Below are positions 38,397-64,000 of a stretch of 64,000 nucleotides of DNA, piece after piece (positions within the stretch are counted from its first letter, which is position 1; each line of letters opens with the position of its first letter). The stretch lies in the NCBI GenBank assembly GCA_017620205.1, contig JAFZQX010000046.1, forward strand, positions 1 through 64,000. Reading direction: 5' to 3'. The position numbers were made by a program, and so were the translations under genes. The notes under the pieces were generated by a model, which saw only the letters and a program-made list of their open reading frames with translations, had not been told where the DNA came from and did no database searches. The DNA is from Clostridia bacterium (GTDB lineage Bacteria > Bacillota > Clostridia > UMGS1883 > UMGS1540).

Positions 38397-38446
38397 GAAT
38401 TTTACTATTTTTGTCGGTGCGGAGCGACGGAATGGAGATTAAAGCT

Positions 38447-42607: not shown

Positions 42608-43618
42608 ATGGCTGTGGAATTTGATTATTTCTACGGAAGCGAAGCAGAGCAATACGCCTTTTACAGAATACCGAAGCTGCTTATTACTTCGCCTATGTTC
42701 AAGAAAGTGTCCGACGGCGCAAAGCTTTTGTATGGCTTAATGCTTGACCGTATGTGTCTTTCTGTCAAAAACGGTTGGGTTGACGAGGGAAACCGGGCAT
42801 ATATATATTTCACTACAAACGATGTAATGGAGCAGATGAACTGCGGGACGGAAAAAGCAACAAAAATGCTCGCTGAGCTTGACGGCGAAAAGGGAATAGG
42901 TTTAATAGAACGCAGAAAACAGGGACAGGGAAAGCCCGCTTTGGTCTATTTAAAGAAGTTCTATACCGAAGATGAAAGCAATCGAAAAGGCAGACTTTCG
43001 GAAACCGAAAGTCAAGACTTCGGGAAATCGAAAGTCAAGACTTTTGAAAATCGAAATTCAAGAGTTTCGGAAACCGAAATACAAGACTTTCGGAAATCGA
43101 AATCTAATAATACTGATAATAGTTATACTGAATATAATAATACTGAATCTATCAATCATATCATATCATATCCAAACAACAAAGAAGAATATGACGCCGC
43201 CGAAGCCGATACGGTGATTGATACGATAGGATGGATAAACGAGCGCACAAAGTATAAAAAAATCATTAAAGCAAATATTGAGTATGATATTTTGTGTGAA
43301 AGATACGAAAAGGAATGGCTTGATGAAATAGTTGCGCTTATGGTAGATGTCGTGTGCAGAAAAGAGCCGTATATACGCATAAACAAACAAGACTATCCCC
43401 ATGACGCAGTAAAAAGCAGGTTTTTGAGTATAAACAGCAATCATATTGAATACATATATCTCGCTTTGAGAGAAAACAGTTCAAATGTCCGTAATATACG
43501 GGCATTTTTAATTACAACTATTTACAGGTCTTTTGAAACCTCAAATAATTGGTTTTCCGCAAAAGTAAACTACGATTTGAAAAACGGAAACAGAGCGGGG
43601 GTGTCGGCAGATGAGTGA
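42608..43618 (+). CDS. repA: RepA_N-type replication initiator
   Basis: 336 residues; ACGGAGG upstream of the ATG. N-terminal RepA_N winged-helix domain (about 1-120): FYRIPKLLITSPMFKKVSDGAKLLYGLMLDRM, shown in part by FYRIPKLLI and LLYGLMLDRM, then TTNDVMEQMNCGTEKATKML. The middle (about 128-178) is a low-complexity linker encoded by the iteron-like DNA repeats. The C-terminal domain (about 205-325, IGWINERTKYKKI onward) matches the DUF6017-type region of these initiators. Such proteins start theta replication of plasmids and of excised integrative elements. Stop overlaps the next start (ATGA). Confidence 0.9.
   Translation: MAVEFDYFYGSEAEQYAFYRIPKLLITSPMFKKVSDGAKLLYGLMLDRMCLSVKNGWVDEGNRAYIYFTTNDVMEQMNCGTEKATKMLAELDGEKGIGLIERRKQGQGKPALVYLKKFYTEDESNRKGRLSETESQDFGKSKVKTFENRNSRVSETEIQDFRKSKSNNTDNSYTEYNNTESINHIISYPNNKEEYDAAEADTVIDTIGWINERTKYKKIIKANIEYDILCERYEKEWLDEIVALMVDVVCRKEPYIRINKQDYPHDAVKSRFLSINSNHIEYIYLALRENSSNVRNIRAFLITTIYRSFETSNNWFSAKVNYDLKNGNRAGVSADE
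42991..43104 (+). repeat. Five tandem 22/23-bp iteron-like repeats inside repA
   Basis: Units run 42991-43012 (22 bp), 43013-43035, 43036-43058, 43059-43081 and 43082-43104 (23 bp each). Each has a core like CGGAAATCGAAA, and the first contains the palindrome ACTTTCGG-AAA-CCGAAAGT. Because 23 is not a multiple of three, the repeat is conserved as DNA rather than as peptide. RepA_N replicons are known to carry their origin inside the rep gene, so this is the probable oriV. Confidence 0.85.
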
Positions 43619-43817
43619 TTTGCACAAAAATTATCAAATGCTTGCAAGAGCAATAGTGGTTCAGGCAATCAAGGATTACAGATACAGCGGAAATGATGAG
43701 GTAAGAAAATCTATCGAAGAATTCTTCAGATCCGGTTATTTTTCGCTGCTGTGTGACTATGACGGCAACGAACTGATACGAAAATTAAGAAGGGAAAGGC
43801 TGATGAAAATTGGGTAA
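43611..43817 (+). CDS. Small hypothetical protein between repA and parA
   Basis: 68 residues (YQMLARAIVVQAIKDYRYSG, EEFFRSGYFSLLCDYDG). It starts inside the repA stop (overlap 8 bases) and ends 8 bases into parA, so it is translationally coupled on both sides. Mostly helical and charged; no family that I can name. Confidence 0.7.
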   Translation: MSDLHKNYQMLARAIVVQAIKDYRYSGNDEVRKSIEEFFRSGYFSLLCDYDGNELIRKLRRERLMKIG

Positions 43818-44628
43818 AGTAATTGCGGTGGCAAACCAAAAGGGCGGAGTTGGCAAAACCACAACAACCATAAATCTTGGTATAGGACTTGTAAACGAGG
43901 GGAAAAAGGTACTGCTTATAGATTGCGACGCACAGGGCAGTTTGACGCAGAGCTTGGGTTATCAGGAACCTGACAAGCTGAGCGTTACTCTTTCAACCCT
44001 CATGCAAAAGACGATAGAGGAACAGCCTATAAAGCAGGGCGAGGGCATATTGCGCCATAACGAAGGCGTTGATCTTGTACCGGCAAACATAGAGCTTTCG
44101 GGCATGGAAACAGCGCTTGTAAACGTGATGAGCCGTGAAAGAGTGCTTAAAAACTATATCGACTCGGTAAAAGAAAATTACGATTATGTGCTTATTGACT
44201 GCACACCGTCACTCGGTATGCTGACAATAAATTCACTTGCGGCGGCAGATGAGGTGATTATTCCCGTGCAGGCGCACTACCTGCCGCTTAAAGGTTTAGA
44301 GCAGCTCGTTTCAACTGTAACCAAAGTTCAGCGCCAGATAAATCCGGACTTAAAATTCAACGGCATATTGGTTACAATGGTAGACCGCAGAACGCTGTAT
44401 AACAAAGAGGTTTCATCGGTAATAAGGCTGAACTACGGTAAATACCTGAAAATCTTTAAAACGGAGATACCTCATACTGTCAAGGCTGCTGAGGCTTCGG
44501 CTGTAGGAAAAAGCGTTTATGCGTATGACAGCAAGGGACTTGCGGCGGAAGCGTACAGAAATCTGACAAAGGAGGTGCTTGATAATGGCAAACATAGGGA
44601 TAAACATCGGGAAGACTACACTCGATGA
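43810..44628 (+). CDS. parA: ParA/Soj-type partition ATPase
   Basis: 272 residues from a TTG start. Deviant Walker A NQKGGVGKTTTTINLG near the N-terminus, Walker A' LLIDCDAQGSLTQSLG, Walker B YVLIDCTPSLGMLT, and DRRTLYNKEV. It partitions the element when it replicates, with ParB. A TTG start overlapping the upstream ORF suggests coupling. Confidence 0.94.
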   Translation: MGKVIAVANQKGGVGKTTTTINLGIGLVNEGKKVLLIDCDAQGSLTQSLGYQEPDKLSVTLSTLMQKTIEEQPIKQGEGILRHNEGVDLVPANIELSGMETALVNVMSRERVLKNYIDSVKENYDYVLIDCTPSLGMLTINSLAAADEVIIPVQAHYLPLKGLEQLVSTVTKVQRQINPDLKFNGILVTMVDRRTLYNKEVSSVIRLNYGKYLKIFKTEIPHTVKAAEASAVGKSVYAYDSKGLAAEAYRNLTKEVLDNGKHRDKHREDYTR

Positions 44629-45505
44629 CTTGTTTAAAACAGACGAGGGCAGAAAAGCGGAAGAAATAAAGTCTGTTAAAATCGAGGAATTAAAACCGTT
44701 TGTGGACCAGCCGTTTAAAGTTCTTGAAGATGAAAGCATGGACGAGCTTGTCGAAAGTATAAAACAAAACGGTATTTTGTCGCCGATACTTGTAAGGACG
44801 CACCCGGACGGAGGTTATGAAATCATATCTGGACACAGACGTGTTCACGCCTGTAAACTGGCAGGAATACCTGAAATTCCAACGGTCATTAAAGAGCTTG
44901 ACGATGATACGGCAATTATCCGTCTTGTTGACAGCAATTTGCAAAGAGAAAACATATTGCCGAGCGAGAGGGCAAAAGCGTATGAAATGAAGCTTGAAGC
45001 CATGAAAAGGCAAGGCGCGAGAACTGATTTAACTTGTGACCAATTTGGTCACAAGTTGGAAAATAAAAAAAGTGTTGAAATAATGGCTGAAAACTCAGTT
45101 GATAGTCGCAACCAAATACAGCGCTACATACGCCTTACAAACCTTATAGAACCAATACTTGATATGGTTGACAATAAGGAGATTGCTTTAAATGCCGCCG
45201 TTGAATTATCTTATCTCGGCTCAAAGGCTCAAAGCGAGGTTTTGTATGCTATTGAGAGTGAGGCAACAGCACCGTCTATTGAACAAGCAAAGAAGATACG
45301 CAAATTTAGTGACGATGACAGATTAAATCCCGATGTGATTCTTTCTATTATGCAGGAACAAAAACCCGATAAAGTTAAAATAACACTTAATAATGAACAG
45401 CTTAAAAAGTTTTTCCCAAAGAACTATACCAAAAAGCAGATGGAGGATATTATTATAAAACTGCTTGAAAATTGGCATCGTAAAAGAGAAGATAAGGAGA
45501 GATAG
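44585..45505 (+). CDS. parB: ParB/Noc-type partition protein
   Basis: 306 residues from ATG 44585 (AAAGGAGG 8 bases upstream), overlapping the end of parA. ParB/Srx-like CTPase domain: VDQPFKVLEDESMDEL, NGILSPILVRTH, ISGHRRVHACKLAG, DSNLQRENILPSERAKAYE. Central helix-turn-helix region about 160-215 (SRNQIQRYIRLTNLI). It loads at parS and interacts with ParA. A perfect palindrome lies within its coding sequence (45031-45057). Confidence 0.93.
   Translation: MANIGINIGKTTLDDLFKTDEGRKAEEIKSVKIEELKPFVDQPFKVLEDESMDELVESIKQNGILSPILVRTHPDGGYEIISGHRRVHACKLAGIPEIPTVIKELDDDTAIIRLVDSNLQRENILPSERAKAYEMKLEAMKRQGARTDLTCDQFGHKLENKKSVEIMAENSVDSRNQIQRYIRLTNLIEPILDMVDNKEIALNAAVELSYLGSKAQSEVLYAIESEATAPSIEQAKKIRKFSDDDRLNPDVILSIMQEQKPDKVKITLNNEQLKKFFPKNYTKKQMEDIIIKLLENWHRKREDKER
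45031..45057. repeat. Perfect 11-bp inverted repeat inside parB
   Basis: AACTTGTGACC (45031-45041) and GGTCACAAGTT (45047-45057) flank AATTT. Perfect arms of this length in coding DNA are unusual. Candidate parS or operator site; no second copy was noticed in the window. Confidence 0.8.
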
Positions 45506-48330: not shown

Positions 48331-51300
48331 TTGCAAAGTAAGTTAAATTACATAACGGAGCTTTCAAAAGAAGTTTTAAATGAGATGTCATCTGCCGAAA
48401 AGTGGATGGCTTTTTTAGATACGGCGTCTTGGCAATATAAGTATTCATTCCATGACCAAGTCCTGATATTCGCACAGCGCCCGGACGCGCGTGCGTGCGC
48501 CGATTTTGATACATGGAACAAAAAGCTGAACAGGCGAATAAACAAAGGCGCAAAAGGTATAGCACTTCTGCGTGAAAGAGGTTCTGCGTTCTATCTTGAC
48601 CATGTTTTTGACGTTTCCGACACCAATAAAGGCGCAAGGGGAATTGATATAAGACTTTGGGAGTATAACGATAAATACGAAGATTCGATTATAGAAACTC
48701 TTGAAAACACTTTCGGAGAGCTTAAAGTAACAACAACTATAACCGACGCCGTTATATGCGCCGTACATAACGCGGTTGAGGATAATAAACAGGACTATTT
48801 ATCGCAGTTTGAGCATACGGAAGGAGAAAGCTATCTTGCGTACCTTGACAGTTTTAGCGTAGACGCGGAGTTTTGTCAGACGGCAGAAGCGTCTATTGCA
48901 TATCTGGTTCTTAAAAGGCTGGGGCTTAACCCCGAAGATATTATAAACCCTGATGACTTTTCGCATATAATAGACTTTAACACCGCGCCTACGATTTCAA
49001 TATTGGGAAATGCGGTAAGCGAAATATCCGAACAGGCTTTAAGAGAAATATCCGCAACAATTTTTGCGGAAGCGCAAAAAGAGAAGTATAATGCAAATGA
49101 AGAAAACAAAATTAAAGACGAAAGGACGGTTGAACATGGCAGAGATAACGTACAGGAACGAGAACGGGATACTGATACCGAACTTGGAAGCTCCGAAGAA
49201 CGAGAAGCAGATAGGGAAGTACGGGATGATGAGGAAGAAGTTTCTGAAACAGAACCGGAGAGCGATATACTCGGCGATGATGCTGACAGGTACATTGATG
49301 GAACACCTCTCGGAGATAGACAGCATGGCGAGGGAGCAGGTGCAGTCGATGGTGAAGAAAATGGCGGAAGCGGAGGGCGTGACCGAGAAGATGAAAGCGG
49401 AAAACCCGCAGATGTGGACGGGACTTATGAACAACCTCAAACATTCCGCAGAAGAGGTAGTTCTGAAACAGCTAATTCACAGCTAAACCTTTTTGAACTG
49501 TTTGACGAGTCAAACGCATTAGATAATATGCAAAGAGAGGCAGAGCGATTAAACGGTAATCGCCCTGCTTTTTCTATGCCGCAGGAGGTTATAGACATAG
49601 TTCTGTGCGACGGTGACAATTCAGATAACAGCATTATTGAAATATGCGCTGAGTTTAGCAAAAACAAACCTCTTGATGATAAGGCGTTGTTTTTGAAGCG
49701 GTATTTCGGGACTGACGGGAAAGGCTTTGTCATAGACGGCAGGCTTATGGCGGCATGGTGGAACTCGGACGGAATCAGAATAGCATACGAAACTACTGCT
49801 AAAAGGGGTAATGCACATTTGGTTTCGTGGGAAGACGCCGCGAAAAGAATTGACGAGCTGTTGGATATGGGCAGGTTTGCACCTGCCGACACGCTTCTTC
49901 GCTTGGACGAATATATCTATAACAAAACCGCAGAAAACTTTTGGTATATGTACAGGGATATAGACTTTGATGAAGATAAAAGACTTGCCGGCATATTTTT
50001 AAATGACATATTTGAAAGAACGGGCGGGTTTCCCGATGATGTTGAGAGACTTGTAAAAGTTTTGAAAACACAGGAAGGTCTTGACACTATAAAAGAAGCG
50101 GTACAAAAGCTATGCGACATATACGATAAAAATAATGATGTCATCCGTTTTCGGTATATCAATCCCCACAAAACCAATAAAATGCTTGAAGATTTGTATA
50201 TTGTCCGCAAGCAGTACACGGCGCAGGAGCTTTCGTATGTGCCTCCCGAAAGGTATATATCCGAGGACGAAATAACAAAGGCTCTGTTTAAAGGCTCCGA
50301 CTTTCAGCACGGGAAGTACAGAATATATCTTTTTTTTACCGAACATTCAGACAGTCAGGAAAGACAAAAGTTTCTGAAAGAAGAATATGGAACGGGCGGC
50401 AGCTATAACGGATATATCAACGAATCGCACGGCAGCAAAGGCATTGAACTGAGTCACGGCGATCTTTCGCAGCCATACGCAAAGACATTGCTTAAATGGA
50501 ATGAGATTGCGAAAATAATAGATATACAGATAAAGAAAGGCACATATTTCGATAAATCCAATATAGATTTTATGCCCGAATATGAAAAGGAAGAAATAGC
50601 AAGCGCCGTGCATTGGGCGTTCTATAACCTGAAAGAAGATTTTGCATACAGACCTTATCCTAAAGGAGAAACCCTTTTCGATACAGATGTTGATAAGTAT
50701 ATTATCGAAAAGATGGACAGCACGGAGCAGCTTAATGAAATGATAACGGAGCTTCGCAATCTTGTTATGGAAACGCCCAAAGAAGATAGAGAATACGCAT
50801 TTCGGACAAAAGCGCTCAATATGCTTGAAAAGTATGCTGCCGGCACTTTTAATATGTTTCCCGCCCTAATTAAGCCGCTGCCTTCACCCGCTATGCTCGA
50901 TAAAGCTAAAAGCATTATTGATGAGTATATGAAAAATGAACTTGAAGCTGACGGCGGGGATTATACAAATCTTAAAAAGGTAAGTCTTGCGTTTGCGGAA
51001 ACAGAGGACGGGGAACACGAAATACAGGTTGAAGCGAACCTTCTTGATTTCGCTGTCACAAAGTATGTCGATAACACCGTTGTTAAAGAAAACAAGTATA
51101 ACAGCCTTCGGGAGCTTATAGAAGCGGGACTTACCGGAATGACCTTTGACGATTTAGTGTATTTAACCGATGAACAGCTTGCGCCGTTTCTTAAAGAGGA
51201 GCAGAAGGAGAGCTTTGCGGACTTTTATGAAAGAGTGCATAGGGAAAATGACGGAAAGTGCATTGCACTGTTTCAGGTGGGCGATTTCCATGAAGCGCTC

Positions 51301-54300
51301 GGAGCAGATGCGGAACTTATCGCAGAAACATTTGATTTTAAGCTGACACACAGAAGCATAGAAGACATAAACTATCCCATGTGCGGCTTTCCGAGCTTCA
51401 GACTTGAAGAAAACGTAAACGCCCTAACCGAAAAAGGCTTTGACGTAATTTTGGTTGACGGTGACAGGACGCAGCACAGAGTTCTTTCAAGAGATAAGGC
51501 GTTGGGTATTCCGGAGAAAAAGGAAACACCTCTTGCAGAACAGTTGGTGGACTTCATACACGAATATGACTTCTATGAGTATATGGATAATCTGAATCCC
51601 GGTGACACACATGAAGATGCGGTTCGTGAAATGGAACAAGCGCTTGCAAAGCCGGAGAACGTACGGGCGATTATAAATGACCTTAATGAATACGCAGAGC
51701 AAATGGTTGATGACAATGAAGGGATTGCCTTTAAAGACAGCTTGATAATTCAGCTTGAAAAACTGTTGCCAAAACAAACAGCAAGAGAAAATGCGGAAGA
51801 TAAGCCTTGGGATGATGAAACGGTAATGCGCGTTGCGAAAGAAGAATGGGAGAAAGCGACAAAACCGCCGCAAACCGCGCTTACATACGAGCAGCGAAAC
51901 TATAACTTTATAAATGGCTTTGCACCGCGTGTTCTTGAAGGTAATGTCATATATGCTTTGTATGAGTCAAAAAACTTCATGCCTATACATATAAATAAGC
52001 TGTCCGCAAATACAATGTCAATTTCGCACACCTATGAGCAAAACGGCGATTTGATGTACGATCCGGAAATGGTTTTTGAGATTGACTTTGAAAATAAGGC
52101 ATTAAAGCCGCTTGAATACCGACAGGACAATATGGGTATTCATCAGATAGCCGGCGAAAATGCGGCGGCACAGGAGCTTTCGTCTTTTGCAAGACAATGG
52201 TTTGACAATGTCGGAAATCAAGGCTTTCACTTATCGAAAGAAACTCTTGAATATAACGGCGGTGATATAACAGTTTTCTATGACGAAAACGGAAAAATAT
52301 CAGATGTTAAGGGGGAAGAAAATGCTGTAAATTCATACTTGGAAGCAAACGGCATAGAACTGACGGGACGCGAAACCGAAAATCTTATAGGCAAAGAGCT
52401 TGAGATTGAGGACAGAAAGTATGCGGTTGAGAGTGTAAACGATGAGGCGGGAACGGTAAGACTTAAAGATATTACTTTTGAAACGGGAACGGGTTTCCCT
52501 GTTTTTCGCAGAGAAACAGTTGACTTTGTAAAGGCTGCACTTTCACAGGCAGAGCAAACAGAGCGTATTGTCCCGGAGTTTGAAAAGGCAAAACCCTCAA
52601 AAGTTGCAAACACAGTCATATACCCCGAAATCCCAATGACGCAAAGAAACAACTTTGTAATTGATAACGATGAACTTGGGGTAGGCGGTCCGAAAGAGAA
52701 ATTCAGAAGGAATATGGAGGCTATACGGGTTTTAAAAACTTGCGAAGCCGAACACAGACTTGCAACGGAGGACGAGCAGAAAGTGTTATCCGAGTATGTA
52801 GGCTGGGGAGGACTGCCCGACGCTTTCGATGAAACGAAAGAAAATTGGGCAAGCGAATACCAAGTGCTTAAAGCAGCGCTTACAGCCGAAGAATATGACG
52901 CGGCAAGAGCTTCAACGCTTACGGCGCATTTCACGTCTCCCGTAATAATAAAAGCCATGTATAAAGCGATTGAAAACATGGGCTTTTCACAGGGTAACAT
53001 TTTAGAGCCTTCCTGCGGTATAGGCAATTTTATGGGTTTGGTACCCGAAAGCATGAAGGACAGCAAAATATACGGTATAGAGATAGACAGCATTACGGGC
53101 AGGATTGCACAGCAGTTATATCAGAAAAATTCAGTAGCTGTCGAGGGTTTTGAAGATACAATGCTTCCCGACAGCTTTTTTGATGTAGCGGTAGGCAATG
53201 TGCCGTTTGGGGATTTCAAGCTGTCCGATAAGAAATATAACAAGCATAATTTCCTGATACATGACTATTTCTTTGCAAAAACGCTCGATAAGGTACGCCC
53301 CGGCGGTATAGTAGCCTTTATAACATCAAGCGGTACTATGGACAAGCATAATTCCAAAGTGAGAAGGTATATAGCGCAGAGGGCAGACCTTGTAGGCGCG
53401 ATAAGGCTTCCGAACAACGCTTTCCTGAAAAATGCGGGTACAGAAGTGACATCTGATATTCTGTTCCTTCAAAAACGTGACAGAATGACGGATATAATGC
53501 CCGATTGGGTAGAACTCGGAGAACTCGAAAACGGAATTACGGTAAACAACTATTTTGTAAACAATCCCGATATGATACTCGGTGAGATGAAAATGGTAAG
53601 CGGTCCTTTCGGGCCTACGCCTACTTGTGCGCCGTATGACGATGTTCCTTTATCGGAGCAGCTTAATGAGGCGATACAGAATATTCACGCCACCATTACC
53701 GAATACGAAGTTGAGGATATTTCAAATGACGAGGATTTGTCTTTGCCCGCAGATCCGAATGTCAGAAACTTCAGCTATACTTTGGTAAACGGAGAGATAT
53801 ATTTCCGTGAAAACAGCATAATGCGTAAGGTTGATTTAAATACAACAGCGCAGAACCGCATAAAAGGCATGATTGAGATAAGGGACTGCGTGAGAGAGCT
53901 TATGGAGTATCAGACAGAAGGATATGCAGACGCGTCTATTAAAAATCAGCAGGAAAAGCTGAATAAGCTGTATGACGATTTCACGAAAAAGTACGGGATT
54001 ATAAACTCGCGCGGCAACTCAATGGCGTTTTCCGATGACAGCAGTTATTTTCTTCTCTGTTCGCTTGAAGTTCTTGACGAAAACGGAGAGCTTGAAAGAA
54101 AAGCCGATATGTTTTCCAAAAGGACAATCGGCGCAAAAAGGGAGATAACAAAGGTTGATACTGCTTCCGAAGCGCTTGCCGTATCGCTTGGCGAAAAGGC
54201 TAAAATTGACATGGAGTTTATGGCAGAGCTTACGGGCAAGACGGAGGATAAGCTGTATGAGGATTTAAAAAGCGTAATATTTCTGAATCCGCTTTATGAA

Positions 54301-57590: not shown

Positions 57591-58082
57591 ATGATACTTT
57601 ATCATGGAAGCAATTATGTTGTTGAAAACCCGAAGCTCATTCCGCAGAACAGATTTCTTGATTTTGGATATGGCTTTTATACAACCACAAATAAAGCGCA
57701 GGCAATAAGCTTTGCCGAAAAGGTGTATAAAAGAAAAAAAGTGGGTTCAAAACAGGTTAGCATATATGTTGTTGATGAGGATAAACTATTTTCGGAGTGT
57801 TCTGTTCTGAAATTTGATTCTCCGAGTGAAGCATGGCTTGATTTTGTTTCTGATAATCGTTCAGGCAACTATGACGGCGAGAATTTTGATGTTATTTACG
57901 GTCCCGTTGCCAATGATGATGTTTATGCAACATTTACCCTGTATCAGTCGGGATATTTATCAAAGGAACAAACGCTTGATGCCTTAAAAATCAAGAAACT
58001 GTATAACCAAATGGTTTTTGCAACAGAAAAAGCGTTGTCATTTTTGAAATATTCAGGGACGGTTCCGGAGGATGAGTTTTAA
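57591..58082 (+). CDS. DUF3990 protein, ADP-ribosyltransferase-like
   Basis: 163 residues. N-terminal ILYHGSN (His5) and [11 protein letters not shown] (Tyr30) are the DUF3990 hallmarks and resemble the H and Y elements of H-Y-E ADP-ribosyltransferases. [14 protein letters not shown] and [14 protein letters not shown] complete the family pattern; the third catalytic residue is not certain. Its TAA overlaps the ATG of the next gene. With the two DUF3791 genes it forms a compact cassette resembling a toxin-antitoxin unit; that role is inference. Confidence 0.85.
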
Positions 58083-59885: not shown

Positions 59886-61253
59886 ATGGCTATAACAAAA
59901 ATATGGTCGATAAAATCAAGACTCGATACAAGCCTGAACTATATCTCCAATCCCGAAAAGACAAGTGTAAAGCCTGATATTGACGCGGGCGAGGGAGTAA
60001 TAAAATATATAACCAATAAGGACAAGACGGAACAGTGTAAATATGTAAGCGCTTTCAGATGTTCAGAAAAAGCTCCTTTTAAGGATATGGTTGAAACGCA
60101 AAAGCGTTTTGGGAGAGGACGCAGAAGGAACGAAGTGGTTGCATATCATATAGTTCAATCCTTTAAAGCGTTTGAAGCGACGCCCGAACTGGCACATAAA
60201 TGCGGCAAGGAGCTTGTTGAAAGGCTGTTTGCCGATAAATACGAATGTGTGCTTGCTACTCATTTAGACCATTCACATCTGCATAACCACATCATTATAA
60301 ATGCGACATCGTTTTTGGACGGTTCAAAGTATCTTAATAACTATAAAGACTACTTTATTGATATTCGCAAAACTTCTGATGAGATTTGCAGAGAAAACTG
60401 CCTGTCGGTTATAGAAAATCCGAAAAGGCGCGGTATGCACTATGCCGAATGGAAAGCGCTTAAAGAGGGCAGACCGACAATAAGAGGTCAGGTGCGTGAG
60501 GAAATAGACCAAATGATTCTTTCTTCATATACAATGAAAGAGTTTTGGAAGATATTTGAGGAGCGCGGATACAGGATACACAGACAGGGTGAAAATATAA
60601 AGTACACTTCATTTATTCCCGCCTGCGGTAAAAAGCCGATGAGGTTTTACAATCTCGGCAAAGGCTATACGCTTGAGGATATTAAAGAAAGGATTACAAC
60701 ACAGAGAAACGGTATAAGAGCGGCATCGCCTTCAGAGATAAAAAGGCAGAGGGAATATAAATTCAGCGGCAGTTACGGTAATATGAAACCCATAAAGCTG
60801 AAAGGGTTTAAGGCGCTGTATTTTCACTATCTGTATTTTTTAAAAATAATACGCAAAAAGCAGACGCCTCAAAGGGTGTCTTTCTTTATGCGTGACGAGC
60901 TTATAAAGCTTGACCGCTATCAAAAGCAGTTTAAATTCCTTTTCAAAAACAATATTGAAACCGGTTTTGAGCTATCAGACTATCAGAAAGCGAAAGAGGG
61001 TGAGATAAATGCGTTAGTGGAAGAAAGAAACCGGCTTTACGCTTCGAGGACAGAAGAAAATGAGACGGAAATTAAAGAAAAAGCAGAAAAGATAAATGAA
61101 AAGCTCATAAAACTTCGTGTTGATGTACGAATGTGTAAAGCAATATTTAAGGATTCATACAGAATTTCGGAAAAGTATAGCAGCGCCAATGCTTTAAAAG
61201 AGCAGGCGGAGAAGGAGATGAAAGAGAATGAATACAAGCGGAGAGGTCGCTGA
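59886..61253 (+). CDS. Relaxase, MobA/VirD2 type
   Basis: 455 residues. Relaxase domain (about 1-250): N-terminal YISNPEKT region with catalytic Tyr candidates, VAYHIVQSF, and the metal-binding histidines in THLDHSHLHNHIIINATSF. The C-terminal part is basic and coiled-coil rich. It nicks oriT and pilots the strand. The last 26 bases overlap the start of the next gene. Confidence 0.9.
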   Translation: MAITKIWSIKSRLDTSLNYISNPEKTSVKPDIDAGEGVIKYITNKDKTEQCKYVSAFRCSEKAPFKDMVETQKRFGRGRRRNEVVAYHIVQSFKAFEATPELAHKCGKELVERLFADKYECVLATHLDHSHLHNHIIINATSFLDGSKYLNNYKDYFIDIRKTSDEICRENCLSVIENPKRRGMHYAEWKALKEGRPTIRGQVREEIDQMILSSYTMKEFWKIFEERGYRIHRQGENIKYTSFIPACGKKPMRFYNLGKGYTLEDIKERITTQRNGIRAASPSEIKRQREYKFSGSYGNMKPIKLKGFKALYFHYLYFLKIIRKKQTPQRVSFFMRDELIKLDRYQKQFKFLFKNNIETGFELSDYQKAKEGEINALVEERNRLYASRTEENETEIKEKAEKINEKLIKLRVDVRMCKAIFKDSYRISEKYSSANALKEQAEKEMKENEYKRRGR

Positions 61254-61923
61254 TTTAATGGTAAAGGAAGGCTTGCAGGTTACAGAAGAAGTCGCAAAGC
61301 TTACGGGACTTGGTGCAAAAAACCTTGCGGCCATAATTATCGCTCTTTTGAAAGAGGATAATAAGCTGCAAGGCAAAACAAACCTTAAAAAGCTTCTTAA
61401 ATCTGATAAGCCGCTTTGTATATTGCAGATTAAAGAAAGCGATATAAACAAATTCAACTCGGAAGCGAAGAAATACGGCGTTTTGTTTACGGCTGTAAAG
61501 GACGCTACAAACAACACGGGACTTTGTGATATTATCGCAAAGCAGGAGGACGTGACAAAGCTCAATTACATAATGGAGAAGATGGGATATGCGGCTCCCG
61601 AAAAGGAAATTGAGCCGGAGCCTGAACCCGAAAACTCTTCGGAAGGAAAAGACAAAGACTTGAAAGAAAAAGAAGAAAAAGCAAAAAAAGCACCGCCCCG
61701 TGCAAAAGGAAATCCGCCAGAGAACGAATATACGAAGCACGGGGGTTCAGACAACACGGACAGCCGTACTAATAAGAAACCTTCTGTTAAGAAAAAAATT
61801 GAAGATATTAAAAAGCATCAGGCGAAGAAGGACGGCAAGAGCATTGAGAAAACAAAAGTTCACGAAACGCCTGCAAAGGGCAAGAAAAAGAAAAAGTCAA
61901 AGAAGAAAGGTAAGAGCAGATAA
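61228..61923 (+). CDS. PcfB-like protein (DUF3801)
   Basis: 231 residues, overlapping the relaxase by 26 bases. N-terminal about 125 residues match DUF3801 (ITEEVAKLTGLGAKN-like VTEEVAKLTGLGAKN, LKKLLKSDKPLCILQIKESD, FTAVKDATNNTGLCDI). The C-terminal 100 residues are extremely Lys-rich with low complexity. PcfB of pCF10 and relatives help the coupling protein or relaxosome. A coupling protein gene usually follows, but here a terminator and a surface protein do. Confidence 0.85.
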   Translation: MNTSGEVADLMVKEGLQVTEEVAKLTGLGAKNLAAIIIALLKEDNKLQGKTNLKKLLKSDKPLCILQIKESDINKFNSEAKKYGVLFTAVKDATNNTGLCDIIAKQEDVTKLNYIMEKMGYAAPEKEIEPEPEPENSSEGKDKDLKEKEEKAKKAPPRAKGNPPENEYTKHGGSDNTDSRTNKKPSVKKKIEDIKKHQAKKDGKSIEKTKVHETPAKGKKKKKSKKKGKSR

Positions 61924-61952
61924 TGATATATAAGCCGAACAGGTACAGAGTG

Positions 61953-61978
61953 CCGCCGTAGAAATACGGCGGTTTTTT
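61953..61978 (+). terminator. Terminator after the mob operon
   Basis: CCGCCGTA and TACGGCGG with a GAAA tetraloop, followed by TTTTTT. A textbook intrinsic terminator. Confidence 0.93.
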
Positions 61979-62020
61979 CATGCAAAAATATAATTTCAGT
62001 TTAAATTGGAGGAGTTTAAA

Positions 62021-64000
62021 ATGTCTATAAAGAAAGCTATTAAATCTATTATATCAATCATATTATCAGTACACATGGTAATTTCCGTAACACCAAGCGT
62101 ATCTGCAGCACAGCATAATGAGTATATTGATCCTGCGGACGTATGGATGACAGTAAACAACAGAACGAATGAATTGGACATGAACGCTACAGTCACATAC
62201 GAAACACAGTATTGTCCCGTGTGCGATAAAGAAACGGCTTGTATGACATACAGAGTTCCGGAATACACAAAATCGGGCGAAACAGCGCTCAATCGCAACG
62301 TAAGATATTCGGACGGCACTTGTGTTGACGGAACATCAAAAGGAAACCTTGACAGCGGTATACCGGGTCAGGACGCATATTACACCGGGTATCATTGGAC
62401 AAAATCTGTTTGCCAGAGCTGCGGTACAATAAACGCAATAGACGGGCCGGGAGCTTATGATTTTAACAGAAATGTATATTGTCTTAACCCGTGTGATTAT
62501 AATTTCTTTTTGGATTTTGATAATACAACATACGAGCCTTATGACGAAGATTATCATACAGTAACGCTCAAAGCCGGAAAGTATTGTCAGTTTTGCAAAG
62601 GTACAAAAGAGCGCGGCACAAACAAAAAAGAAGCACATGATTTTACAGAAGTAGTTGATGCACAGCTTGGAAATAACCGCTTCTGTATTCATCAGCATTG
62701 TGATGACTGCGGCTATGAAACGAGCGAGTATGTAACTGCAAAATCCGTAATTACATCATACTATGGCGAAGTTGACGGAGACGCTCATACTCTGACAGTT
62801 TCGGATTTGTCGGACAGAGGCGTAAAAACATCAATCCGCTACGGTAAAACGGCTGAAAAGTGTAACCTTACATCAGCTCCGAATTTTACGGAAGCCGGAT
62901 ATAACACGGTTTACTATGAAATAACATATATGTATGACGGCGAGAGCATGACGGAAAACGGCGTAAGCTACGTTTGGCTTCTTGACGAGCCTGAAATCAG
63001 TGTAACAATTATCATGCCGGAAACAAGAAACGAAACACACGAACATGATTTCAGATATATCGAAACTGTACCGCCGACCTGTAATACACTCGGCTACGAA
63101 AGATGGCAGTGTAAAGATTGCGGAGCACTTGAAAAGAAGAATTATGTTCAGATGACAGGACATGACTATGAAACGGTAACGATAAAAGACGCTACTTGCA
63201 AAGAAAACGGCTTGATACTTAACCTTTGCAAAAACTGTGGTGATTTCAATACAGTAACCACAACAACAGGAGCGCATAAATACAATGTAAAGACAATAAA
63301 TCCGACTTGTCAGATGGTGGGATATACCGAGCATAAATGCGAATTGTGCGGAGATACATATTTAACAGATATTCAGCCCATAGTATCTCATGCGTTTGAG
63401 AGTATAGTAAAAGAGCCTACCTGCACAGACAAAGGCTACACAACATCAACGTGTTCAATGTGCGGCTTAACCAATGTAACGGATTATACAGAACCTTTGG
63501 GACATGACTATGACGAAGGCAAGACGGTGACAAACTCCACCTGTGAAGGCGAGGGCGTTATAGAATACACTTGCAGCAGATGTGGCGATAAGATGATAAA
63601 ATCAACATCCGCAAACGGTCATAAACCCGGTGCGCCTGCAAACTGCACAGAACCTCAAATATGTGAGGACTGCGGAACAATTTTACAGCTTCCGAAAGGT
63701 CATACCTACGAAAGCAGGGTAATTGCCCCGACCTGTACCGAAATGGGATATACAGTATATAAGTGCAAAGACTGCGGTGATGAATATACAGGCGATTACA
63801 CAGATAAAGCGGAACATAAATATACAAAAACAGTTACAGAGCCTACCTGCACAGAACACGGCTTTTCAACTTATGTATGCAGCGAGTGCGGAGCAAGCTA
63901 TATTTCAGACTTTGTAAAACAGCTCGGTCATACTCCTTCCGAATGGATTATTGATACGCCTGCAACTATTGAAAACAGCGGTGAAAAACATATTGAGTGT
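62021..64000 (+). CDS. Secreted Cys/His-rich repeat protein (3' end beyond the window)
   Basis: At least 660 residues, open to the window edge. ATG 62021 with TTGGAGGAG upstream. Signal peptide about 1-28 (SVTPSVSAA). After an N-terminal part with two CxxC pairs (YCPVCDK, VCQSCG), at least seven modules of 30-45 residues follow. Each has the pattern PTCTExGYTxYxCxxCGxxY...GHxY, with three Cys and one His. The pattern is found in large surface proteins of gut Clostridia and could bind zinc or form disulfides; the function is unknown. Being element cargo, it may be an adhesin or conjugation-related surface factor. Confidence 0.82.
   Translation, partial: MSIKKAIKSIISIILSVHMVISVTPSVSAAQHNEYIDPADVWMTVNNRTNELDMNATVTYETQYCPVCDKETACMTYRVPEYTKSGETALNRNVRYSDGTCVDGTSKGNLDSGIPGQDAYYTGYHWTKSVCQSCGTINAIDGPGAYDFNRNVYCLNPCDYNFFLDFDNTTYEPYDEDYHTVTLKAGKYCQFCKGTKERGTNKKEAHDFTEVVDAQLGNNRFCIHQHCDDCGYETSEYVTAKSVITSYYGEVDGDAHTLTVSDLSDRGVKTSIRYGKTAEKCNLTSAPNFTEAGYNTVYYEITYMYDGESMTENGVSYVWLLDEPEISVTIIMPETRNETHEHDFRYIETVPPTCNTLGYERWQCKDCGALEKKNYVQMTGHDYETVTIKDATCKENGLILNLCKNCGDFNTVTTTTGAHKYNVKTINPTCQMVGYTEHKCELCGDTYLTDIQPIVSHAFESIVKEPTCTDKGYTTSTCSMCGLTNVTDYTEPLGHDYDEGKTVTNSTCEGEGVIEYTCSRCGDKMIKSTSANGHKPGAPANCTEPQICEDCGTILQLPKGHTYESRVIAPTCTEMGYTVYKCKDCGDEYTGDYTDKAEHKYTKTVTEPTCTEHGFSTYVCSECGASYISDFVKQLGHTPSEWIIDTPATIENSGEKHIEC

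Follow-up and report, generated by a model that had tools for sequence, protein, structure and literature searches.

A TnpV reading frame nested on the same strand within the giant polyvalent gene of a conjugative element from a Clostridia bacterium

Introduction

Can one stretch of bacterial DNA be kept open, and under selection, for two proteins at the same time? The question is raised by a giant gene in a 64,000-nucleotide stretch of DNA from a Clostridia bacterium (hereafter the window), within which a preliminary description, made from the sequence alone, had noticed a complete second reading frame for a TnpV-like protein. Long overlaps between bacterial genes on one strand are considered rare, and one of the two frames tends to be dropped by gene callers. 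A bacterial case of overprinting is comS, which lies inside srfA of Bacillus subtilis; pop/ompA and laoB are narrow in distribution. The latter two, from Escherichia coli O157:H7, are antisense overlapping genes according to the accessible parts of the reports (PMC7103648, PMC5810103).

The published TnpV is a separate gene, for example in Tn6104–Tn6106, and its role in excision is postulated from its likeness to lambda Xis, as far as the available portion of that source goes (PMC3158075). Polyvalent proteins of conjugative elements are the subject of Iyer et al. (2017), where Tn1549-like elements are among the carriers, again in the sections available (PMC5512222). Here, we analyse the two frames of the locus, their relatives, and the constraints that act on them.

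Results

A full-length TnpV frame lies inside a giant gene

The nested frame translates into 116 residues followed by a stop codon and sits entirely within the 3034-codon open reading frame of the giant gene (Table 1). It occupies the +1 frame relative to this gene, so that codon position 1 of tnpV is position 2 of the host codon, and position 3 of tnpV is position 1 of the host codon. The preliminary description had called its product a full-length TnpV-family protein and had named a Pfam search as a check; the search bore this out, with PF14198 (TnpV) matching at E = 2e-37 and 128 bits (cut-off 27) over profile positions 1–111 of 111. In ncbifam, TnpV had no match near the cut-off; in PHROGs it matched phrog_24764, whose function is unknown; and a scan of viral contigs found no relative of the window TnpV. 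The open run that holds tnpV extends over 147 codons, far more than the 62 and 60 codons of the runs that follow it in length on this strand outside the giant frame. However, run length is insufficient as the sole argument for tnpV, because the antisense frames of the giant gene contain open runs of up to 280 codons. When the window TnpV was recoded synonymously, the giant frame acquired a mean of 8.4 stops, compared to none in the actual gene. On the minus strand, opposite the giant gene, window 52278–53093 holds an open frame of 271 codons, which may be due to chance.

Table 1. Features of the window at and around the nested frame
Feature	Position	Strand	Basis
RepA_N / DUF6017 replication protein	42608..43618	+	Pfam
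ParA and ParB genes	43810..45505	+	Pfam AAA_31/CbiA, ParB_N
Giant polyvalent gene, 3034 codons	48322..57426	+	Open frame; Pfam domain matches
N-terminal domain of giant protein	48331..49101	+	Profile A1 match
GAAAGGA, Shine-Dalgarno-like site, nine bases before tnpV ATG	49120..49126	+	Sequence
Giant-protein linker read from the overlap (acidic; disorder predicted)	49135..49485	+	AlphaFold2, composition
tnpV, 116 aa	49136..49486	+	Translation; PF14198 full profile; AlphaFold2 pLDDT 89.2
DUF3990 gene, downstream of giant gene	57591..58082	+	Pfam
Relaxase (MobA/VirD2-like)	59886..61253	+	Pfam PF03432, E = 1.7e-31
DUF3801 gene, transfer region	61228..61923	+	Pfam

The giant gene starts at GTG 48322 or possibly at TTG 48331, the latter having the better spacing from AGAAAGGGG. 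It had been labelled an ArdC/methylase/helicase gene; MutS_I, DUF6908, ResIII, SNF2-rel_dom, and Helicase_C matched above the Pfam cut-off. The methylase part is marginal (Eco57I methylase, 25.0 bits, cut-off 25.3), and the ArdC part is weak, as PF08401 (ArdC-N) was reached by only one of 17 N-terminal relatives (E = 0.099). The N-terminal domain presumably resembles ArdC-N, judged by its motif alone.

The nested pair recurs across relatives

With the window TnpV as the query, the genome contigs yielded 13 loci. The giant frame is stop-free across tnpV in 12 of them, with the host flanks matching in the same frame; one of the 12 (L015) is counted by its downstream part only, its locus being cut by a contig edge. 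The third frame contains 10 to 17 stops across those loci. The sole exception of the 13 is L014, a stand-alone tnpV copy. A Pfam search detected TnpV in 58 of 148 genomes from the class, and the 14 control genomes gave no match. The locus set consisted of the regions around most of the longer TnpV matches and of giant genes without an obvious TnpV, and was extended with loci from the phylum (398 genomes, 27 with a match) and from the family (6 genomes).

A sample blind to TnpV was obtained by searching the N-region of a tnpV-less giant gene in 391 genomes of the class, 88 of which matched. It comprises 69 loci (29 returned by the search and 40 fetched, with the query's own gene excluded); the remaining places matched by this search, mostly already known or short, are outside the 69. 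In 67 of the 69 loci, the +1 frame is open for at least 120 codons and matches TnpV (E 1e-50 to 3e-6), with the weakest matches coming from the most diverged nested frames; the −1 frame is never open for more than 88 codons. The two loci without a TnpV-matching frame are L222 and L229, and removal of four repeat loci leaves 63 of 65 with the frame. Across the whole locus set, distinct giant genes with a near-complete N-domain number 106, and 102 of these carry TnpV in the +1 frame. The other four are L128, L222, L229, and L125, the last being undecided, as only 174 bases follow its N-domain.

According to the preliminary description, a relative that kept the linker while the nested frame was broken would refute the overlap. 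No such case was seen among the 69 loci. The three measurable giant genes without the frame have linkers of 50 (L183 = L128), 54 (L229), and 76 aa (L222), whereas linkers with tnpV measure at least 129 aa, with a median of 153 aa (87 labelled rows). A further 30 unlabelled rows have a median of 148.5 aa, L128 at 50 being among them.

Nested pairs also occur on a Virgibacillus plasmid and a Cohnella plasmid (both Bacilli) and in further families of the phylum. The annotation of three nested plasmid records is split: those of Monoglobus and Cohnella list TnpV without the giant gene, and that of Virgibacillus lists the giant gene and no TnpV. This split is suggestive only, because the plasmid gene table is incomplete. 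The genome from which the window comes has a second nested pair (contig C5, tnpV 61679–62023; L002, L069, and L140), and its giant gene is about 36% identical to that of the window in the N-region and 41% identical in TnpV.

Both frames are open beyond chance and constrained in different ways

In all, 176 distinct TnpV genes (repeats removed, match of at least 86 residues) were classed by the presence of the giant N-domain in frame upstream. Among the 104 genes with the N-domain, the giant frame is stop-free in 102 and closed in 2; among the 72 without it, the frame is open in 2 and closed in 70, with a median of 8 stops. In clusters at 80% identity, the corresponding counts are 67, 1, 2, and 58 (Fisher p = 7e-33). 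The two closed cases are broken giant genes (L094 with one stop, and L038 = L072 with ten stops), and tnpV is intact in both. The two open cases without an N-domain are L015, at the contig edge, and L063, a 162-codon open run without a host, which we take as chance.

The giant frame gains a stop if, and only if, a T-ending tnpV codon is followed by one starting with AA, AG, or GA. Among codons for which a T-ending synonym exists, copies with the N-domain use it at 11 of 2464 stop-making sites, the 11 all belonging to the two broken hosts, and at 1139 of 5234 harmless sites. In copies without the N-domain, the counts are 558 of 1955 and 1560 of 3887, respectively. An earlier count of stop-making codons (0 of 986 in nested copies vs. 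477 of 1575 in the others) has some circularity, since an open giant frame was the criterion by which its copies were called nested. When 39 nested TnpV were recoded synonymously with host codon usage, a mean of 8.0 stops appeared in the giant frame. Collectively, these results indicate that both frames are open across relatives beyond chance.

A comparison of synonymous and nonsynonymous change had been proposed as a check as well, and was made for the tnpV frame: nested pairs that are 65–99% identical have a mean pN of 0.03–0.17 and a mean pS of 0.16–0.60 (pN/pS about 0.19–0.29), and substitutions concentrate at third positions of tnpV. Of six identity bands, five show a lower pS for nested tnpV than for stand-alone pairs; in the sixth, the two are about equal (0.602 vs. 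0.595). TnpV identity exceeds linker identity in every host-identity bin shown, from 0.30 up, and tnpV is the more conserved frame, as had been suggested.

The preliminary description had also noted that the host frame over the overlap is rich in E, D, G, and R, which holds, and had read the linker as tolerating whatever tnpV imposes. The asymmetry behind this reading stands, but the linker does not merely accept what it is given. Its hydrophobic content is 13.0%, compared to 20.8% expected from stop-free synonymous recoding, and its acidic content is 21.3%, compared to 12.4%; the former is lower and the latter higher in all 59 copies. Because its composition departs from the recoded expectation in every copy, the linker is not a passive by-product; judged by this comparison of sequences, its acidic, low-hydrophobic composition is itself selected. 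The constraint on the linker is compositional rather than residue by residue, and tnpV is constrained at its amino acids.

The two products are predicted to differ in fold

AlphaFold2 modelled TnpV (57 sequences) as a hairpin and five helices with a mean pLDDT of 89.2. For the linker (30 sequences), the block mean pLDDT was 43–60 across the overlap, with a pTM of 0.18. The models thus present TnpV as a confident helical fold and the linker as disordered. The composition of 59 copies was recorded as well, with a hydrophobic content of 35.6% for tnpV, 13.5% for the linker, and 32.6% for the rest of the host. Foldseek found no match for the TnpV model in the PDB at E ≤ 0.001. A further structure comparison gave a best Z of 5.5, which for a helical model may reflect only a common arrangement of helices, and a TnpV sequence profile run against PDB chains returned a single match, to a designed protein (E = 0.031). 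In these fold and PDB profile searches, the model thus has no structural support for or against an Xis-like role in excision.

A conserved ribosome site precedes tnpV

The ribosome site that had been attributed to the nested frame is present as GAAAGGA in the window and recurs in its relatives. An ATG lies in the start window of 55 of 60 nested copies, and 54 of these 55 have a strong ribosome site, compared to 6.4% of matched background windows and 13.3% of the background windows with an ATG. Each of the GAAAGGA bases, at −16 to −10, is retained in 44 to 50 of the 55 copies. The five copies without an ATG in the start window are the diverged L126, L127, L131, L132, and L137. A promoter and terminator scan around the overlap showed no clear tnpV signal; over both strands it returned five promoter-like and four terminator-like sites, with 1.4 and 1.0 expected. 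We infer that TnpV is made from an internal start, for which the conserved ribosome site gives only indirect support and there are no expression data.

The nested frame could also be entered by a +1 programmed frameshift from the giant gene, which would yield a fusion of the N-domain to TnpV without a fresh start at the ATG. In most copies, the open tnpV frame reaches upstream beyond the ATG (by a median of 18 codons ahead of the profile start; in the window, from position 49043), which would allow such a fusion, but the upstream open length is highly variable (0–62 codons), and the conservation of both GAAAGGA and the ATG speaks against it. In L145 and L135, moreover, tnpV is closed off a single codon upstream of its ATG, leaving only that codon for read-in. 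Because of this closure, frameshift read-in is not the general route, and frameshift fusion was ruled out as a general mechanism; we consider it very unlikely overall and retain the internal start.

TnpV is most likely the older frame

The identities of TnpV and of the N-domain correlate with r = 0.888 (0 of 2000 permutations), and the pair has therefore largely been inherited together. The three giant genes that lack tnpV occupy three places on the host tree. They are most simply read as losses of tnpV, a reading that depends on a midpoint-rooted tree with long branches and uncertain rooting.

In the tree of TnpV, a grade of nested copies encloses a stand-alone clade (L003, L004, L104, L109, and L112), and the stand-alone L014 is sister to the nested L011, both with good support; a separate stand-alone clade holds 34 members. 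The first two placements suggest that tnpV has at times moved out of the giant gene and, after that, lost the open giant frame. However, the direction is uncertain at each step, because there are few columns (116) and 11 label changes. Two of the stand-alone copies, L003 (C7:21289–21633) and L004 (C29:566–910), come from the window's own genome and are close relatives of its second nested pair, and a 19-pair terminator-like hairpin directly follows the stop of L003. Another genome, G094 (1.7 Mb; L044, L087, L092, L100, and L114–L116), has nine TnpV matches, most of them stand-alone; as a stand-alone gene, tnpV may thus be able to multiply inside one genome.

In overprinted pairs, the disordered frame is usually the younger one. 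From the contrast of fold and disorder, and from the short linkers of tnpV-less hosts, we infer that TnpV is most likely the older frame. The order may also be reversed, with the linker older and tnpV born by overprinting, to escape later as a stand-alone family. The stand-alone clade within the nested grade and the position of L014 indicate that escape probably does occur, and codon usage does not tell the frames apart, being undecided as a test of age (tnpV better in 28 of 59). Since the separate clade of 34, the folded TnpV beside a disordered linker, and the short tnpV-less linkers all count against a reversed order, we regard it as unlikely, if still worth keeping in mind.

Discussion

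We conclude, with a probability of roughly 0.87, that the locus holds two real genes overlapping on one strand, with tnpV fully nested in the giant gene and translated on its own; neither product has been demonstrated. On the messenger of the giant gene, an internal start at GAAAGGA-N9-ATG would yield a separate, folded, helical TnpV of 116 residues, and ribosomes from the giant gene's own start would read the same 351 bases in the other frame as a disordered acidic linker that joins two domains of the giant protein. The linker would exist because the giant frame runs through tnpV. Selection acts on tnpV for its amino acids and on the linker for staying open, hydrophilic, and acidic, and the pair has been co-inherited over a long time across the sampled Bacillota hosts.

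Two simpler accounts would leave only one real gene in the overlap. If the giant frame alone were real, the tnpV frame would be a relic, held open by chance or by the host codons. Overlapping frames can indeed stay passively open, and expression evidence is lacking; yet a relic would hardly match PF14198 over its full length, concentrate its substitutions at tnpV third positions, be better conserved than the linker around it, remain intact in broken giant genes, and have stand-alone family members. Moreover, an intact full-length linker with a broken tnpV occurs in none of the 69 loci sampled without regard to TnpV. We find this account hardly credible. Conversely, the overlap might be translated only as tnpV, the giant gene being in reality two genes or a pseudogene. 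The plasmid annotation leans this way, in that two of three nested records list tnpV and no giant gene, but the giant frame runs without a stop through tnpV in 102 of 104 copies with the N-domain, the N- and C-flanks lie in one frame, and the linker composition bears the mark of selection in 59 of 59 copies. We judge this account extremely improbable and hold to the nested pair.

The nested frame belongs at full length to the family of PF14198 and of TnpV of Tn4451 and, like the published members, is carried by a mobile element. It differs from them in lying nested in a giant gene, where published TnpV is a separate gene, and its model has no clear structural relative. In Streptococcus suis elements, TnpV-carrying cargoes are inserted into snf2 genes, a different arrangement from the nested tnpV as far as the available part of that report tells (PMC9815147). 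Like pop/ompA, laoB, and comS/srfA, the locus encodes a second protein in another frame of a longer gene; unlike the E. coli pairs, which are antisense, it is a same-strand pair that involves a named protein family and is found in 102 of 106 giant genes. No title or abstract opening on TnpV nested in another gene was found in the CC-licensed PubMed Central literature. Each of the three components (TnpV, polyvalent proteins, and overlapping genes) is known singly, and their combination was not found in the searches of this literature.

What TnpV does can be inferred only broadly. Around stand-alone TnpV, 93 same-strand ORFs fell into 63 families, the best 25 of which included recombinases (5), NikA-like proteins (5), Mob_Pre (3), and RepA_N (3), and no fixed neighbour was found among these 25. 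We favour the inference that TnpV is an accessory factor of DNA transfer, excision, or regulation in a mobile element, made together with the polyvalent protein. A more speculative idea, which we put forward tentatively and think possible rather than probable, is that the overlap is a functional lock: TnpV would act with or on the polyvalent protein or the travelling DNA, and sharing one stretch of sequence would force joint expression and inheritance. Were this true, a protein of a mobile element would have given a giant protein delivered by conjugation its flexible linker, and few nested gene pairs known from bacteria would be older or more widespread. With its recurrence in many relatives, the pair is documented unusually well for a case of DNA shared by two bacterial genes, the translation of tnpV being inferred. 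The pair also comes with natural controls that are usually missing, namely stand-alone copies, broken hosts, and insert-free hosts, and can serve as a testable model of how one DNA sequence accommodates two frames.

The element that carries the pair is conjugative and encodes a relaxase and type IV secretion proteins. Outside the window, the same element has genes for a type IV coupling protein, a TraG P-loop protein, and an NlpC/P60 protein, and it has one mark of a Tn1549-like integrative conjugative element, namely the presence of relaxase and type IV secretion genes. The giant protein likewise has one mark of a polyvalent protein, with several conflict-related domains in one polypeptide and genes of a conjugative element around it; an ArdC-N header and an N6-methylase domain rest only on the weak and marginal matches given above. 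It resembles the published polyvalent proteins in being giant and multidomain, with MutS-I, helicase, and a marginal methylase, in the company of a relaxase and type IV secretion. TnpV, 'overlap', and 'alternative frame' gave no hits when the main text on those proteins, in so far as it was available, was searched for these terms (PMC5512222). As to an integrase and the element ends, no recombinase was found among the element ORFs scanned, which are a partial set. An aminotransferase gene lies at 38411, and two unidentified genes separate it from the RepA_N gene at 42608; the left end of the element is probably somewhere between these two positions. Just past the transfer genes is an IS200-like transposase gene (L179:11524–11964; contig C8:75524–75964).
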